The position numbers were made by a program, and so were the translations under genes. From Chloroflexota bacterium (GTDB taxonomy: Bacteria > Chloroflexota > Anaerolineae > J102), in assembly GCA_013151415.1 (NCBI GenBank), contig JAADII010000019.1, positions 1-46,707 of the forward strand: a stretch of DNA of 46,707 nt. Reading direction: 5' to 3'. Each line of letters starts with the position of its first letter. Positions within the stretch are counted from its first letter, which is position 1. Of the stretch, positions 1,518 to 40,871 are shown one piece after another. Below the pieces are notes generated by a model. The model did not search any database and had not been told where the DNA came from. It was given only the letters and a program-made list of their open reading frames with translations.

Positions 1518-3053
1518 TCATTCTTGCAACCACACGCCGCCCACCAATTCCACCTCGAGACCGAGGGCCGAGGCGAGCACATCGATGTTGCGCCCCGCGT
1601 CCCACAGCTCCATGGCCGCATCGCCCGCAGCCAGCACTTCGATCTGAAGCCAGCCTTGGTCAAGATCGAGATGGCAGCGCACATCGCGAATGACCTGACG
1701 TCGTCCTCGCTCGAAATACTCGGCCAGCCGAAGGATGCCGGCCATGATCATCAAAGCGCGAACGTCCTCTTTTTCCAACCAGGGTGCAAGATTGCCCGGC
1801 TTGGGAACGCCTTTGCTGCGATGATATCGGGTGAGCAATGCAATGAGAGCCAGCTCCCGCGGCGCATAGCCCGACAAAGCATGGTTGAGAATAATGTAGC
1901 TGGAATGCTGATGATGATATTGATAATCGACGATGACGCCGATGTCGTGTAAGATGCTGGCCGCCCACAGCAGATCTTGATAGCTTTCATCCAAACCGTG
2001 CGCCGGTTTGAGATCATCGAACATGCGTTGAGCCAGAAAGGCCACATGACGCGTGTGCGTTTCATCGAACGCGAAATTGCGCGCGAGGTTGTAGACGCTG
2101 AACTCGCGCAGATCATCGATGATGGGCCGATTCTGCTCGACGAGAAAACGTTCATAGAAAAGGCCCTCGCGCAACCCCTGACGACTGATCACAACGGCAT
2201 CGAAGCCGCTATGTTGCAAAATGACGCTATAAGCCAACGCGCCAGCATGAATAATGTCGGCCCGGTCAAAGCGCAAACCAGGGATCGCGGTTCGTTTTTT
2301 CAATGTAAGTCGCCAGAGATGCTCACTAATGGCATGAAGGTCTTGCGCTCGAAAACGATAGTTGGGCAGGATGCGCACAGGCAATCGTTTTTGCGCCTGG
2401 TCGATTTGGGCCAGATTCCGGATAGTGCCCCCCAAAGCCACCAGACAATCGCCGGGTTGATGGCGAAACCAATCCAGCGGCGCCAGCACTTCGGTGGTGA
2501 AAGCCTTCAACGCCTCCACCTGTTCGGGCCGCACCTTGTTTGGGGCCAGAAATAGCTCGGTGAGTCGCAATGCGCCAAGAGGAAGGCTGACCGAACGGGT
2601 GGGAAAACCCTCGCGCACTTCAACCACCTGAGCGCTGCCGCCGCCCAGGTCCACCACGAAACCCTCGCGCAACCCCGTGGCGTTGATCGCGCCCAACGCG
2701 CCATAAAAGCCTTCTTCCTCGCCACTAAGCACGCGCAAACGCCAACCGGTGTTGGCCTCGGCCCGGGCCAAGAACGAGGCTTTGTTGGCCGCGTCGCGCA
2801 CCGCGCTGGTGGCGACGGCCGTCACCTCTTCCACGCCCTGAGTGTCGCAAAAGGCGCGAAACATGCGCAAAGCGTTTAGGCTGCGCTCCATTGCGGCCGC
2901 GCGTAGCACATTGGTGCGGCCCATGCCCTCGCGCAAACGCACCACCTCGCGCACTTCGTCGGCCAGGCGAAATCGACGCCCGGGCTCGTATTCATAAATG
3001 ACGAGCCGCGTGGTGTTCGAACCCAAATCGACAATGCCGGTTTTTAGCGTCAT
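1518..3053 (-). CDS. ppx: Ppx/GppA-family exopolyphosphatase with C-terminal HD domain
   Basis: It hydrolyses terminal phosphate from inorganic polyphosphate and/or converts pppGpp to ppGpp in the cytosol; sequence alone does not separate Ppx from GppA. The N-terminal half is an ASKHA ATPase fold: GIVDLGSNTTRLVIYEY (residues 6-22) is phosphate loop 1 and VDLGGGSAQVVEV (about 133-145) is phosphate loop 2. The C-terminal half carries an HD-type helical domain with SILHDIGVIVDYQYHHQHS near residue 368. At 511 residues it matches the long two-domain form. ATG at 3053 starts directly at the fold. The gene follows glpX on the same strand after a 288-nt repeat-bearing gap, so it may be separately transcribed. 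Confidence 0.9.
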   Translation of the reverse strand: MTLKTGIVDLGSNTTRLVIYEYEPGRRFRLADEVREVVRLREGMGRTNVLRAAAMERSLNALRMFRAFCDTQGVEEVTAVATSAVRDAANKASFLARAEANTGWRLRVLSGEEEGFYGALGAINATGLREGFVVDLGGGSAQVVEVREGFPTRSVSLPLGALRLTELFLAPNKVRPEQVEALKAFTTEVLAPLDWFRHQPGDCLVALGGTIRNLAQIDQAQKRLPVRILPNYRFRAQDLHAISEHLWRLTLKKRTAIPGLRFDRADIIHAGALAYSVILQHSGFDAVVISRQGLREGLFYERFLVEQNRPIIDDLREFSVYNLARNFAFDETHTRHVAFLAQRMFDDLKPAHGLDESYQDLLWAASILHDIGVIVDYQYHHQHSSYIILNHALSGYAPRELALIALLTRYHRSKGVPKPGNLAPWLEKEDVRALMIMAGILRLAEYFERGRRQVIRDVRCHLDLDQGWLQIEVLAAGDAAMELWDAGRNIDVLASALGLEVELVGGVWLQE

Positions 3054-3075
3054 GACGCGGGCTGCTTGGTAAGTC

Positions 3076-3110
3076 GTCCAAAGTCCAAGGTCCGAGGTCC
3101 AAAGTCCGAG
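3076..3110. repeat. Five tandem heptamers GTCCRAR
   Basis: Five consecutive 7-mers, GTCCAAA, GTCCAAG, GTCCGAG, GTCCAAA and GTCCGAG, differ only at purine positions. They are intergenic between ppx and glpX. A degenerate three-unit copy lies at 40758-40778. It resembles the short tandemly repeated repetitive sequences known between genes of filamentous bacteria; function unknown. Confidence 0.85.
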
Positions 3111-3146
3111 GGCCGGTCGGACAGGTCATGTCGTGATGAGCGGCCA

Positions 3147-3220
3147 GACCAATATAGACCATAGGACCAACATAGACCAAAAGGCCCATCGTCTATCTTG
3201 GTCTATGGTCTACGTTGGTC
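3147..3220. repeat. Inverted arrays of a GGTCTAT-type short repeat (imperfect hairpin)
   Basis: The left arm (3147-3180) contains GACCAATATAGACCATAG and further GACCAA units; the right arm (3191-3220) contains GTCTATC, TTGGTCTATG and GTCTACGTTGGTC, roughly its reverse complement. About ten bases separate the arms. The same style recurs at 10698-10760, with traces at 7999-8030 and 18790-18820. It lies upstream of ppx and downstream of glpX and may fold in either transcript. Confidence 0.7.
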
Positions 3221-3341
3221 GGCGCAAACGATTTTCATCTGTTTCGGCGTGCGCCTGCGCACCGTAGGTCTGCTTTGAAGAAAGGATCAAAAAAAACGAA
3301 CTTCGAGCGCGACGGTGCGCGCCATGCGCGATGGCAAACCA

Positions 3342-4334
3342 TCAGCCAGGAACATAGCTCACATTGCTGTACTGCATCAGTTTGTCCCAACGGTGACGGG
3401 CTTCGATGATGCGCACCGTGCCCGAACGCGACCGCATGACCACACTGTGGGTGGTGGCTCCGCCGCCATAGTATCGGACCCCACGCAACAATTCGCCGTT
3501 GGTGATGCCGGTGGCCGCAAAGAAAACATTATCTCCACGCACCAAATCCGAGGTCTTAAGCACTTTATTGACATCAATGCCTTCGGCCAAAGCCCGACTG
3601 AGCTCTTCTTCGTTTCGCGGCCATAGCTTGCATTGAATTTCACCGCCCAAACATTTGAGCGCCGCCGCGGCGATGACAGCCTCGGGGGAGCCGCCAATAC
3701 CCATCAATGCATCGATGCCCGAATCGGGCATGCAGGTGGCGATGGCGCCGGCCACATCGCCATCGCTGATAAGCCGGATGCGCGCGCCCGCTCGACGCAC
3801 CGCGGCGATAAGTTCGGCATGACGCGGGCGATTGAGAATCATCACGGTCACATCGCTGATATGCTTATCCATGACGCGGGCGATATTTTGCAAATTTTCC
3901 TCCACAGGCGCCTCGATATCCACTGCGCCGCGAGCGCGCGGGCCCACGGCGATCTTATCCATGTAAACAAAATGATAGGGGTAATACATGGTGTCTCGTT
4001 CGGCCACGGCCACCACCGAAAGCGCGCCATTGCCGCCTTCAGCCGTGAGGCGCGTGCCGTCGATGGGATCCACGGCGATATCCACCTTGGGCGGAGCGCC
4101 CGTGCCTAAATTCTCGCCATTGTATAACATGGGCGCTTCATCTTTTTCGCCCTCGCCGATGATCACGACGCCATCCATGGCCACAGTGCTCAACACCAGA
4201 CGCATGGCGTCGACCGCGGCCTGATCCGCGGCCTCCTTATCCCCCCGGCCCATCCAGCGTCCTGCGGCCAATGCCGCGGCCTCGGTTACGCGCACCAGTT
4301 CCAATGCTAGATTTCGATCAGGAAGATCACCCAT
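3342..4334 (-). CDS. glpX: Class II fructose-1,6-bisphosphatase
   Basis: It dephosphorylates fructose-1,6-bisphosphate to fructose-6-phosphate for gluconeogenesis; some class II enzymes also act on sedoheptulose-1,7-bisphosphate. The 330-residue protein has the family length. It shows [15 protein letters not shown] (about 54-68), the metal-site DPIDGT near residues 86-91, VAVAERD, and [19 protein letters not shown], the GlpX signature. ATG at 4334 is set by an AAAGGAG Shine-Dalgarno about 9 nt upstream; a longer upstream reading frame lacks homology. An extended -10 promoter lies at 4413-4418. It is monocistronic or weakly coupled to ppx across the repeat-containing gap. Confidence 0.95.
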
Positions 4335-4412
4335 ATGCGCTGCTCCTTTGCAGTGAATGGAGTGAATGAAATGAGTAGTTAAACGATCAGGATCATAAGA
4401 GAGCCTGAATTC

Positions 4413-4443
4413 ATTGTAGCACAAGCGGCCTGCTTATCTGTAA
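4413..4443 (-). promoter_or_regulatory. glpX promoter (extended -10)
   Basis: The minus strand carries TGC-TACAAT, an extended -10 (hexamer 4418-4413). A weak -35, TTACAG (4443-4438), lies 19 nt upstream. It gives a leader of about 70 nt that ends in a strong SD. Confidence 0.5.
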
Positions 4444-7962: not shown

Positions 7963-8073
7963 GTGAGACGGTGAAACCATCGGGTTGCGCCAGCGCCCAT
8001 CGTCTTATCGTCCACCGACCACCCAACCAATCTCGAACATTGGTCTTCGGACGCTCTTTGCAGCAGGTGACTC

Positions 8074-10566: not shown

Positions 10567-10697
10567 GAGTTTGATCCAAACCAAGCAGACGAACAGGGCG
10601 CATCTGGTCTATATTCCTCACCACCGACGCGACCGACCTCAGGGGCTATTTGCGAAACAGGCGTCACGGGCGGCAGCCCGCTGACACCCATAAAAAG

Positions 10698-10760
10698 GAC
10701 GATGAGACCATAGGACGAAGAGACCATGGCCGAACCTAACCCCATTGTCCTATCGTCAAA
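10698..10760. repeat. Octamer array GACSAWRR with partly inverted partner
   Basis: Four tandem octamers, GACGATGA, GACCATAG, GACGAAGA and GACCATGG (10698-10729), are followed by GTCCTATCGTC near 10747-10757, roughly the reverse complement of part of the array. It is intergenic between two glycosyltransferase genes and repeats the arrangement at 3147-3220. Confidence 0.7.
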
Positions 10761-11883
10761 GCAAAGTCTCATAAAGCGCCAGCGTGCGATCCACGACGCG
10801 CTCCAGGCGATGGCGTTGGGCAACGCGCCGCGCACATTGTCCCCAGGCTTGGGCCTGAACAGGATGAGCGAGAATATGATCGAGGGCTTGAGCCAGCGCG
10901 ACGACATCGTCCGGCGGAACAATCAAGCCGTTTTCCTTATGCGCAACCATGTAGGGAAGGCCCCCCACCGCGGTCGCGATCACCGGACAGCCCGCGGCCT
11001 GCCCTTCAGCAACGGCCACAGGCGCGGTCTCTTGCCGCGAGGCCAACACCAAGGCTTGGGCCTGGGCCAGCTCGACCCGCGTCTCCTCCGCGCTCAAGCC
11101 GCCCAGAAACTGCACGCGCTCTATCAACCCAAGGCCCTGGACCAATTTTCGACAACGCGCGACGTATTTGGGCATGGATTCGATCTCGCCGGCAATGCGA
11201 AGATGAGCCTGAGGATGCCGTTTGGCCACCCGCGCAAAGGCCCGGATCAACACATCGATCCCTTTCCTGGGAATGACGCGGGCCAGGGTGAGCAAACGCC
11301 CCTCTTGCGGCCGCGGCTCGATCTCAAAAAATGCGTCGTCAATGGGATTCTCGACATCATGCCAGACAAGATGAGGATGTTCAGAAAAAGCCTCGCGCAC
11401 ATAAGGATTGATGGCGATGCAATCGCGCGCGCGCGTCAGCACTTTCTTTTCCAACGCTGCGTCGTATTGCCAGGCCAACCACTGCTTGGGATGACGGACG
11501 CGACTACGCGCGGCCTCCATTTTCACCACCCCATGCACGGTGATGATCTGTGGCAACTCGCTGTCGAGAGCGGCCGCGGCGTAGTAGCCTGTGCCATGCG
11601 CATGAATGACATGAGGCCGAAAAGACATGGCTGCATCGACCAGAGAAGCCCGCAAGCGAGTGTGCCAACGCGTGCGCGGATAACGGGGCACTGGCACGCG
11701 ATAAATTGTGATATCGCCGCCCAGCTCAACGCGGTCGGCCACTCCAACATGAGCGCTCACCACGCCGACCTTAACTCCGGTCCGGCGCGCCAACCCCAAA
11801 GCCAGGGCGTGCACCACGGCTGTCACGCCGCCGGTGATGGGTTGATTGGGAAAAGGATATGGGCCAAACAGAAGCACGCGCAT
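10756..11883 (-). CDS. GT4-family glycosyltransferase
   Basis: A GT-B fold glycosyltransferase of 375 residues. The N-terminus reads MRVLLFGPYPFPNQPITGGV; IHAHGTGYYAA lies in the acceptor domain. The nucleotide-sugar domain has LLTLARVIPRKGIDVLIRAF and the acidic motif in SRQETAPVAVAEGQAAGCPV. The first Glu is present and the second (in AVAEG) is spaced normally. It lies 53 nt downstream of a methyltransferase and upstream of a second GT4, suggesting joint work on one surface glycan or glycolipid. The two GT4 proteins are not close copies. The substrate is unknown. Confidence 0.88.
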   Translation of the reverse strand: MRVLLFGPYPFPNQPITGGVTAVVHALALGLARRTGVKVGVVSAHVGVADRVELGGDITIYRVPVPRYPRTRWHTRLRASLVDAAMSFRPHVIHAHGTGYYAAAALDSELPQIITVHGVVKMEAARSRVRHPKQWLAWQYDAALEKKVLTRARDCIAINPYVREAFSEHPHLVWHDVENPIDDAFFEIEPRPQEGRLLTLARVIPRKGIDVLIRAFARVAKRHPQAHLRIAGEIESMPKYVARCRKLVQGLGLIERVQFLGGLSAEETRVELAQAQALVLASRQETAPVAVAEGQAAGCPVIATAVGGLPYMVAHKENGLIVPPDDVVALAQALDHILAHPVQAQAWGQCARRVAQRHRLERVVDRTLALYETLL

Positions 11884-18696: not shown

Positions 18697-19023
18697 CTAA
18701 CTAACTCCTTGTTGGGTGATAAAATAACGATGAAAGACAAATGATCGTGCGATTTAATCGGGTTGTTAATCTTTGAACCCTGTTCTGCAATCATCCGTCC
18801 TCTATCGTCCACTATAGCCAAAACCACCTAAGCTGGCAATGTGACCGAGCGGTAAGAAAGCGCTGTGCAATGGTGCGCATATTGAGGCGCTCAACGAGGC
18901 GGCTCGCGCCAAAAGGTGCGCCAAAGTTTTAGAGCCATGATCCAACATGGTGCGCGCCTCTCAAAGGGATGCGTTTCCATTTCGGGGTGAAAAGTTGCAC
19001 GTTATTGCAAAGGCGCGTCAGCC

Positions 19024-19082
19024 CCGAAGCCATCGCCGCCGTCCATTATGGCCGCGGTGATGAGCGTTGGCGATGGCTTCGG
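19024..19082. repeat. Perfect 14-bp inverted repeat with 31-nt loop
   Basis: CCGAAGCCATCGCC (19024-19037) pairs with GGCGATGGCTTCGG (19069-19082). The loop itself contains a GCC/GGC pairing. No T-run follows either arm, so it does not look like a simple terminator. Confidence 0.75.
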
Positions 19083-19150
19083 TCTATGGCCTCGCCATGA
19101 CGCTTCTGAACGCGTTCCCTTTTTGAAACGCCCCCCTCTCAAACCCCCGG

Positions 19151-19753: not shown

Positions 19754-20206
19754 ATGACTCTCACCACCGAACGCATCAGCCTGATCATTGCGCTCATCGC
19801 CGCCTGGGTGGCGACGCTAGGCAGTCTCTATTTCAGCGAAGTTCTCAAATTCATACCGTGCACTTTGTGTTGGTATCAACGCATTCTCATGTATCCTCTT
19901 GCGCTGATCATTCTCGTGGCCGCGTTACGGCGAGATCGGGGCGTTCCAGCCTATGTGTTGCCATTCTCCATCTTTGGCATTTTCGTATCCAGCTATCATT
20001 ATTTGCTTCAAAAAACCGACCTGTTTCAAAAGGGCGCCGTCTGCACGTCCAACATCCCTTGCACGGCCACCTGGATCAACTGGTTTGGTTTTATCACCAT
20101 TCCATTCCTTGCCTTGACCGCGTTCATCATTATTACACTGGCCATGTTTGTGTTCATCACCGAAAGCCAATACGCGGAGGCGTTGGAGGAAGACGCCGAA
20201 GAGTAG
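19754..20206 (+). CDS. DsbB/BdbC-family disulfide bond formation protein
   Basis: A four-helix membrane quinone reductase of 150 residues that reoxidises a DsbA/BdbD-type thiol oxidase outside the membrane. It has the first Cys pair in [11 protein letters not shown] (Cys36, Cys39) and the second pair in VCTSNIPC (Cys97, Cys103), the redox centres of the family. Four hydrophobic segments are evident. The preferred start is ATG 19754; a longer frame begins inside the SLT gene. No DsbA partner is adjacent. The SLT gene is 34 nt upstream and the coiled-coil protein 10 nt downstream, so the three probably form one transcript. Confidence 0.9.
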
Positions 20207-20216
20207 GAGCGTTGCC

Positions 20217-22037
20217 ATGACCACCGACTCATCCCCGCATTACGACGACCCGGTCTCCCCCGCGCGGGACGATGCAGCCTCGACCGATGATCAAGCCATT
20301 CGCGTAGGCGCAATGGGCGCTGTTTTTCCACCGGTCGAGGAGGAGCCCCTCGCGAGCGAGCAGGCGCAACCCGAGCCGATGAAGCCAACGTCGATCCCAA
20401 TTCAAGCAGCATCCGCATCGCAAGAAGCGCTCTCCGGCCCGCCAGAGCTAGAGCCGCCCAGCCTCGATGTCGAGCTGCCCATCGCGCCCACGGGCAAGCC
20501 GCGTCCGCCCTTCGCGGCCGTGAGCGCCCAACCCGAGCCGACCAGCGCCGATATCGAAGCCGCGGTGGAAGAGGAATTTCGCGCGCCCGAATCGGCCGAA
20601 GAGGCGCCAGCCGAGGTCGAGGTCTTGGCCGAAGTGCAAAAGACAACCGCGCGCGCGAAGGAGGCCAAGAAACCGGTGGAAACGGAGGAAAGAAAGAGAA
20701 GCCAGGCCGCCATGGCCGCGGGCGCAGCAGCCGCGACCGCTCGCAAACCCGAAACGCCCGCGCCGGTCATCGAGCCGCCGCCATCTCCACCCCCCGCGGA
20801 AACCGGAGAACAAGCGCCACCGCCGTCACCGCCGCCCGAATCACAACCAGATGATGACGCCGACGCGCGCTTTGGTTGTCTGCGAGACGTTCTCGTCATG
20901 GGCCTGGCCCTGTTGTTGGGCGCCAGCGCGGCCTTGCTCGTCCTTTACGTCATCAACGGCACGCTCGATTATGCCCAACATCCGCGTTTCAAGCTCTTGG
21001 AAAGCGATGTCGCCACCGTGCGCCAGGATGTGCACGCGCTTTCCGGACAAATGTCGCAAGCGCAAGAAGACATCGTTCAGCTCGATGCGCGCTTGAATGA
21101 TGTAACCGCTCGCACCGACGCCATCGAAGCGCGTTTGGACTCCATCGACCAGCAACTCATTGAGCTGAAAACCAGCATCGATGAACTGAACGATGGGATG
21201 GACGGAATCGACGAACGGGTGAAAACCCTCGCGGCTCGATTGGACTCGATGGAGGAGCAACTTACGAGCATAGACCAAACGCTGACCGAGTTGAACGAAC
21301 GTCTGAACCAGACCGAAGAAGGGGTTGATCGGCTGGATGAACGTCTGGGACTTACCGAAGAGGAAATATCCGCTGCTCGCGAGCGGCTTCAAGTGGTTGC
21401 AGAGCGTAGCCAGGAACTGCAAGGCGTGGTGAAGGAAATGAGCGCCCAGCTGGCCGAAGTCGAAGATGCAGCCGAACGATTTCGACGTTTTGTTAGCGGC
21501 TTGGAAGCGCTGTTAAACAGCATGACCGAGCCGCAAACGCCCGAACCCTCTGCAACCATCACGCCCACCTTGTCCATCACTGCGCCCGCGCCCCTCACTC
21601 CCACAGGCGTCGTCACCGAAACCGCTTCGCCCGTCGAGTCGCTCCAGCCTCTTGAGGCCACGCAGCCGCCGACCGAGTTGTTCGACGGCACGCCTGCGCT
21701 CCGGCTTTTCCCGCCTTTATCGCCCCTTTATCGTCCCAATCCCGGGCTCGCGCATATTTTTGGCCTGGTGTGGGAGGATGTCAATGAAAACGGCATCCCC
21801 GATGAAGGCGAGCGCCCCTTAGCCGACGCCGTCGTCACGCTCCACAATGCTCGCGGCAAAGAATTGGCCGTTGTGATCACAGACGAAGATGGGCGTTATC
21901 TTTTCGCCAACCTCGAACCGGGTCTATATATCGTGGTGGAGAGCGATCCCGAGGGGACCGAATCCATCACTCCCAATGCGGTCACGGTTAGCGCCCGCGA
22001 AGATGGGTTGGTGGAGGTGAACTTCGCGGATCGGTAA
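20217..22037 (+). CDS. Membrane-anchored coiled-coil protein with C-terminal SdrD-B domain
   Basis: A 606-residue modular protein of unknown function. Order: an acidic, Pro/Ala/Glu-rich, presumably disordered cytosolic region (1-220); one TM helix (about 225-247, LVMGLALLLGASAALLVLYV); a long coiled coil (about 256-435) with repeated I/L-D-x-x-L units such as LDSIDQQLIELKTSIDEL and LDSMEEQLTSIDQTLTEL; a Pro/Thr-rich linker (436-510); and an SdrD-B/Cna-B-like beta domain (511-606) with VWEDVNENGIPDEGERP and DEDGRYLFANLEPGLYIVVE. The topology suggests a rod extending from the membrane and presenting a beta domain outside. A TAGGAGC SD precedes ATG 20217, 10 nt after dsbB. The beta domain has no Cys, so the link to dsbB is not obvious. 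Confidence 0.8.
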   Translation: MTTDSSPHYDDPVSPARDDAASTDDQAIRVGAMGAVFPPVEEEPLASEQAQPEPMKPTSIPIQAASASQEALSGPPELEPPSLDVELPIAPTGKPRPPFAAVSAQPEPTSADIEAAVEEEFRAPESAEEAPAEVEVLAEVQKTTARAKEAKKPVETEERKRSQAAMAAGAAAATARKPETPAPVIEPPPSPPPAETGEQAPPPSPPPESQPDDDADARFGCLRDVLVMGLALLLGASAALLVLYVINGTLDYAQHPRFKLLESDVATVRQDVHALSGQMSQAQEDIVQLDARLNDVTARTDAIEARLDSIDQQLIELKTSIDELNDGMDGIDERVKTLAARLDSMEEQLTSIDQTLTELNERLNQTEEGVDRLDERLGLTEEEISAARERLQVVAERSQELQGVVKEMSAQLAEVEDAAERFRRFVSGLEALLNSMTEPQTPEPSATITPTLSITAPAPLTPTGVVTETASPVESLQPLEATQPPTELFDGTPALRLFPPLSPLYRPNPGLAHIFGLVWEDVNENGIPDEGERPLADAVVTLHNARGKELAVVITDEDGRYLFANLEPGLYIVVESDPEGTESITPNAVTVSAREDGLVEVNFADR

Positions 22038-40604: not shown

Positions 40605-40757
40605 TATTCCCCTTACCTGCTATCAGCCGCCAACAAAAGAGTAGGATAACAATCAATGATGTTGCGCTTTATTTGCATCCGCTTTTTTTGGCGAGCGCAT
40701 TGCTGTCACCCACTAAAGAGCTCCTCCCCATCACCGCCCACATCCCTTGCGTTCGAA

Positions 40758-40778
40758 GTCCGAGGCCCAAAGTCGGGT
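40758..40778. repeat. Degenerate three-unit GTCCRAR heptamer trace
   Basis: GTCCGAG, GCCCAAA and GTCGGGT, in the same phase as the array at 3076-3110. Intergenic. Confidence 0.5.
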
Positions 40779-40871
40779 AGGGCGCAGGGGAAGGGGCGAC
40801 AAGACGGTGAACAAGCGGATGACGGTCGCTTGCTCTATGGCGGCGCTGGTCGGTTCGCGACGCCTGTTGCA

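Follow-up and report, generated by a model that had tools for sequence, protein, structure and literature searches.

The gap between ppx (1518-3053, minus strand) and glpX (3342-4424, minus strand) in the 46,707-nucleotide stretch of Chloroflexota DNA analysed here, called the window below, contains a run of GTCCRAR heptamers beside an inverted array of GGTCTAT-type units. An earlier note on this DNA had read these as two families of short tandem repeats confined to gaps between genes, and the locus raises the question of whether such arrays are independent repeats, signals acting in RNA, or pieces of something mobile. The window was searched with nhmmer models built from copies elsewhere in its own genome (G000; 4.52 Mb in 197 contigs, 97.66% complete), using the reversed window as control. 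Two near-complete and two truncated copies of one element were found (Table 1), and the reversed window gave no match with these models. The GTCCRAR array described before is indeed in phase and consists of exactly five units (GTCCAAA, GTCCAAG, GTCCGAG, GTCCAAA, GTCCGAG), and the GGTCTAT-type units next to it form two mutually complementary arms; rather than two families, however, both arrays are parts of a single unit. The inverted design noted again at 10698-10760 belongs to the second near-complete copy (nhmmer E 2e-31). Two supposed degenerate traces, at 7999-8030 and 40758-40778, lie within the truncated copies, but a third at 18790-18820 gave no nhmmer match even at E ≤ 10.

Table 1. Copies of the element in the window and parts of the main copy (window positions).
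Feature	Position	Strand	Basis
Near-complete copy, GTCCRAR + GGTCTAY type, glpX-ppx gap	3064..3275	+	nhmmer (H2 model 3087-3275, E 2.6e-55; H3 model 3064-3253, E 7.8e-10) and fold
Left end, degenerate TGC-TTTGAAAATAG	3063..3075	+	sequence; unmatched at ≤2 mismatches
Five GTCCRAR heptads in phase	3076..3110	+	sequence
Hairpin arm 1, AGACC units	3147..3177	+	sequence, fold
Hairpin arm 2, GGTCTAT units	3190..3220	+	sequence, fold
Right end: TTTCATCTGTTTCGG, palindrome GTGCGC-CT-GCGCAC (3249-3262), terminus CTGC (3270-3273)	3233..3273	+	
Near-complete copy 2, GACGAT type, between two glycosyltransferase genes	10657..10767	-	nhmmer (H1 model 10654-10760, E 2.1e-31; H3 model 10656-10772, E 3.9e-26) and fold
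Truncated copy, GTCCRAR + GACGAT type	7964..8061	-	nhmmer (H3 model, E 3.4e-13)
Truncated, degenerate copy	40749..40840	+	nhmmer (H3 model, E 4.6e-5)

Motif counts in the window and the predicted folding of the two near-complete copies exceed those of shuffled sequence. GTCCRARGTCC (≤1 mismatch) occurs nine times in the window against 2.72 ± 1.72 in shuffled versions, and GGTCTATNNTGGTC (≤2 mismatches) ten times against 1.47 ± 1.35; in 100 shuffles, numbers as high as these never occurred for either motif. The main copy as a whole folds with a z-score of -4.68, equalled by none of 200 shuffles, and the second near-complete copy with -2.17 (3 of 200). A partial left end of a next unit (3274-3279) directly follows the terminus CTGC of the main copy. 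Elsewhere in the window we noted a 14-bp inverted repeat unrelated to the element (19020-19090; CCGAAGCCATCGCC ... GGCGATGGCTTCGG) and, at 20148-22037 on the plus strand, a gene for a long coiled-coil protein with a C-terminal SdrD B-like domain.

The complete unit is non-coding, approximately 110-210 bp long, and can be written as yTGY-TTTGAAAATAG, a hairpin of heptad words, and TTTCATCGGTATCGG followed by a palindrome and ..CTGY. In most cases TGC or TGT stands before its left end, TTTGAAAATAG. After this end come heptads, then a spacer, a hairpin composed of 7- to 8-nt words, and finally the right end, which closes with CTGC or CTGT. Three main interiors occur in G000, namely GACGAT words, GTCCRAR with GACGAT, and GTCCRAR with GGTCTAY, each of them with more than one palindrome type. 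The stems of the right end (CGGGC/GCCCG, CGAAC/GTTCG, CGAGC/GCTCG, GCGGGC/GCCCGC and GTGCGC/GCGCAC) covary: 82 of 101 distinct right ends are at least 80% paired in one of two registers, whereas redealing the 3' parts among them gave 60.4 on average and never more than 70 (0 of 1000 trials reached 82). The remaining 19 lack the palindrome, chance matches and degenerate copies being among them. Interiors fold more stably than dinucleotide shuffles, with a median z of -3.6 for 43 arms in G000 (29 at z ≤ -3) and -3.1 for 25 arms in the genus g5 (14 at z ≤ -3). The word period is 7 in both (z 19 in G000, where period 8 is also strong at z 17, and z 22 in g5). Other word blocks, such as GACGCGGATGAACACGGATTTCACGGATT, stand immediately after the left end at three G000 loci (L044, L050 and L071).

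Counts across the genome, one of the checks proposed in the earlier note, bear out a dispersed element. A search of G000 for three consecutive GTCCRAR units gave 15 overlapping matches at 10 places, and most GTCCRAR arrays in this genome form one end of the longer unit. The right-end pattern was found at 59 places at least, compared to one for the reversed control. One subtype with seven copies has a median identity of 97.7%, which, at the level of sequence, speaks for recent amplification. Among 61 genomes the pattern is abundant only in family f1, which judging from its sequences is Caldilineae of the Chloroflexota, and reaches at most four matches outside it. Right ends per f1 genome range widely (435 in G015, 217 in G004, 122 in G016 and 98 in G014; 0 to 4 in several others). 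In 301 Chloroflexota genomes only G000 exceeded ten matches, the f1 member G008 having exactly ten; the 299 genomes outside f1 had pattern counts of up to 9 each, with reversed controls of up to 7, and a few of these matches may be real copies. In the genus g5 the ends of the element are kept together with the 7-nt period and the hairpins, and the interior words differ (GGATTA, AATCAGT, ACGCATC, ACGCAAT, GACGTTT, CGCAAAG and ATCTGCG, besides a GAGCGAAG hairpin). At locus L203 (1323-1560), the same ends flank nested hairpins, with an outer stem of CGCAAAG type enclosing an inner one of GGCAAGTGGCAGG type.

How the units adjoin each other and their surroundings was determined from the ends. Exact head-to-tail junctions, with a left end after the right end, were present for 18 of 72 right ends in G000 and 18 of 44 in g5, counting right ends with 75 nt downstream and accepting degenerate left ends such as that in the window. 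The offset is mostly 39 with a 5-bp stem or 41 with a 6-bp stem. Neighbours fused in this way often carry different words, hence simple local duplication does not explain all fusions. Units mostly have (C)TGY as their left neighbour, and CTGY also terminates the right end.

The position of the copies was assessed in a sample of 304,169 bases, made up of the window and 20 stretches picked by contig number, using a cut-off of E ≤ 1e-3 for the element and a simple hexamer caller for genes (coding density 89.9%). Of 2206 element bases at 20 places (16 without the window), 303 overlap called genes, i.e. 14% in a sample that is about 90% coding. The claim that all arrays are intergenic is true for the four window copies, one of which has 5 of its 107 bases in a called gene. 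Likewise, 76 of 83 distinct copies in the loci examined lie outside called genes and seven inside. By GC skew no replication-strand bias was seen (12 of 21 and 9 of 18 loci; low power), so that insertion into lagging-strand DNA receives no support. Orthologous gaps were compared in the ten genomes, among those searched, in which glpX and ppx are adjacent; in the other genomes the two genes did not occur side by side on the locus examined. This is a comparison between species or genera. In five of them the gap is short (2 bp in G005 and G010, 15 in G002, 64 in G019, 71 in G016). In the other five it is long (223 bp in G018, 243 in G007, 288 in the window, 361 in G017, 526 in G004) and holds five different inserts. 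The insert of G004 is an oppositely oriented unit whose ends are the same but whose words differ, and that of G017 a heptad hairpin with, by eye, an end-like sequence; in the heptad or palindromic hairpins of G007 and G018, no ends could be recognised. A letter-exact empty site was not obtained, the gaps of G004 and G016, which belong to the same genus, being unalignable by eye.

From these sequence comparisons we conclude, with a probability of roughly 0.7, that the repeats form a family of non-autonomous, non-coding mobile elements with conserved ends and a hairpin of heptad words; as to its type, a REP/IS200-like non-autonomous mobile element is the best reading. The suggestion of mobile small repeats in the earlier note is supported by dispersed copies with common ends, an amplified subfamily, the intergenic enrichment, and filled versus short orthologous gaps. 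Its comparison with STRR applies to the interior with its period of 7, but overlooks the larger unit with its own ends which, at least in G000, surrounds the arrays.

One may turn this reading around and regard the heptad arrays and hairpins as primary, spreading by a process of their own (slippage, hairpin-templated repair or an unknown polymerase), with the conserved ends as a frequent neighbour that was caught up. Such an origin is supported by arrays that stand free of the ends: none of 16 distinct GTCCRAR arrays in other genomes, mostly of g5, had both ends, with a single weak left-end match among them, and three of the eleven in G000 have neither end recognised, although one of these (L006) resembles a truncated unit. 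The end-less inserts of G007 and G018 between glpX and ppx point the same way, as do heptamer satellites reported from other bacteria including Chloroflexus aurantiacus. On the other hand, seven of the eleven G000 arrays immediately adjoin a left end and are followed farther on by a right end (the window's array has the right end only), and the exact junctions and the covarying right-end palindromes also weigh against this origin. Further, GTCCRAR arrays above control level are almost confined to genomes that have the ends. We regard the primacy of the heptads as rather unlikely. Since heptad arrays do also exist alone, their capture by a mobile unit is nevertheless a live alternative to rewriting of the words in place. 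Free-standing GTCCRAR arrays were recorded at L356-L372, mostly in g5, some beside AATCAGT- or ACTGATA-type words; one of them (L369, G015) lies immediately next to the right end of a unit that points the other way.

Selection for a structured RNA or a regulatory element beside genes, such as a terminator, an attenuator or an mRNA-stability hairpin, would fit the stable hairpins, the intergenic location and the compensatory changes seen in the stem of the right end. The earlier note, too, had suggested that the arrays may act in RNA folding. However, the gaps occupied by the 83 copies resemble the background: 45 are co-directional, 14 divergent and 8 convergent (nine further copies lie at locus edges), compared to 74, 22 and 7 among the sampled gaps of 100 bp or more, without marked convergent enrichment. 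Of the copies between co-directional genes, 19 share the strand of these neighbours and 26 are opposite to them, i.e. there is no strand preference. At the main copy, the only place scanned for these signals, neither a promoter nor, between 2900 and 3500 of the window, an intrinsic terminator (GC stem plus T run) was detected. The words are not conserved between genera, nor is the presence of an insert at glpX-ppx, and in ten loci no Rfam family came near its gathering score (four weak matches with E values up to 1, each scoring well short of it). These observations speak against a structured RNA or regulatory element, which we consider very improbable, and a role in RNA folding finds no support in them. 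A classical MITE, moved by a DDE transposase via terminal inverted repeats, agrees with the element in size, dispersal, non-coding nature and the homogeneous subfamily. Yet in 73 and 44 rows inspected by eye, the left end TGYTTTGAAAATAG and the reverse-complemented right end (GCAGGCTTCACGG...) do not match; an early idea that the ends are inverted repeats of each other was dropped, as the likeness occurs only in some copies. In addition, no target duplication is apparent at 36 isolated copies, whose left and right k-mers are equal no more often than in shuffles (for k = 4, six versus 6.2 expected). Transposition of this kind is likewise improbable.

Among the short repeats known from other bacteria, the small dispersed repeats of cyanobacteria are very small and mobile and co-occur with heptad arrays, and the Nostoc tRNA-Leu intron has heptad stems, i.e. 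hairpins with heptad arms; our element differs from these in its sequences and ends. Heptanucleotides of this sort, the heptamer repeats or STRR, were reportedly described in Calothrix by Mazel in 1990. Heptamer repeats are of the GGGAATC type in Xanthomonas and Nostoc, TAACTGA in Beggiatoaceae and (GATAGRA)n in Chloroflexus (PMC4692102, PMC6749651, PMC4679880). The element shares with them the 7-nt period, degenerate tandem units, intergenic location and several words per genome, but in G000 its words are mostly held between fixed ends, its arms are complementary, and its relatives swap words while keeping the ends. Similar to MITEs, it is short, non-autonomous, dispersed and probably moved in trans, and it differs from them in the absence of terminal inverted repeats and of a target duplication at each copy (PMC10969869). 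REP and REPIN sequences are palindromes tagged by GTAG or CGTC and connected to RAYT transposases, the CGTC-tagged kind likewise being without a known transposase (PMC3733652, PMC3116915). High-copy extragenic palindromes, compensatory stems, tandem clusters, amplification within the genome and subfamilies of stem and loop are all shared with the element. In contrast to REP/REPIN, it is 110-210 bp long with two unlike ends and an interior of heptad words. The GTAG tag is absent beside its stem, where GTATC or GTGTC is found; CGTC follows the stem in many copies, though only of the 6-bp-stem subtype, and the core stems have 5-6 bp instead of the 8-9 bp of CGTC-tagged REPs. Whereas a REPIN consists of two inverted palindromes, each unit has, by eye, one palindromic end, and fused neighbours are arranged head to tail. 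Thus, the element works most like REP/REPIN, yet has neither the tag nor, as detailed below, the link to RAYT genes, and it belongs among the small non-autonomous repeats without membership in any one family. The literature searches brought up no paper on such elements in Caldilineae or Anaerolineae; one survey of satellites was among their results.

Candidates for an enzyme moving the element were searched for in G000 and its relatives. Despite near-identical element copies, no match to a Y1 transposase was found in G000, and relatives had 39 matches in 16 of 21 genomes searched. The element motif was absent near all 30 Y1 loci inspected out of these 39, unlike RAYT-linked REPs, and copy number did not follow the number of Y1 genes in 13 family genomes (Spearman 0.18, p 0.57). 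A Y1 transposase was consequently rejected as resident mobiliser. Reverse transcriptase genes were present in seven of twelve genomes searched, the g5 genomes G004, G009, G012, G014 and G015 having exactly one RVT_1 gene each. None was found in G000, G003, G008, G010 and G011; G000 and G011 carry element copies, and this candidate was likewise rejected. An autonomous copy was not detected either, as the loci examined contained no gene enclosed by a left and a right end. The mobiliser may have been lost from G000, may be missing from the draft assembly, or may be of another class.

For the favoured reading of a mobile unit with conserved ends, the following course of events can be proposed. An enzyme acting in trans would recognise both ends, above all the right-end palindrome, and the unit would be inserted just 3' of a (C)TGY site. 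Its own CTGY terminus would then serve as landing site for the next unit; the exact head-to-tail fusions would arise because a unit ends in CTGY, which is usable as the next target. Single-strand transposases of the IS200/IS605 type insert 3' of a short target, resembling the (C)TGY left neighbour of the element. Because there are no terminal inverted repeats and no target duplications of individual copies, a single-strand mechanism fits better than cut-and-paste by a DDE transposase; by analogy, an enzyme class like that of IS200/IS605 and REP elements is conceivable, though we hold it with less than even confidence. The heptad interior would be free to change its words provided that the period and the self-complementarity are kept. 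The arrays in the window would represent insertions, some old and others recent, which the gaps between genes can tolerate, and no regulatory function would have to be assumed for them.

Intergenic heptamer repeats have been noticed in several bacterial groups, and their origin is not agreed upon. In G000, they sit within a unit whose ends can be defined, whose terminal palindrome covaries and whose head-to-tail junctions are exact, and in relatives the words are seen to be swapped. Tentatively, and with some doubt, the element may be viewed as a mobile carrier whose ends are fixed and whose "heptad cassette" can be exchanged, with entirely different words within one bacterial family. If this is true, the two complementary arms must change jointly, by replacement or by rewriting. 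Either heptad hairpins would have to be captured ready-made from free arrays, or a copying process, such as slippage with hairpin-templated repair or a dedicated polymerase, would have to rewrite both arms and keep the 7-nt period. A vague class of repeats would in this way become testable for its movement, for the enzyme involved and for the joint change of two complementary arms.
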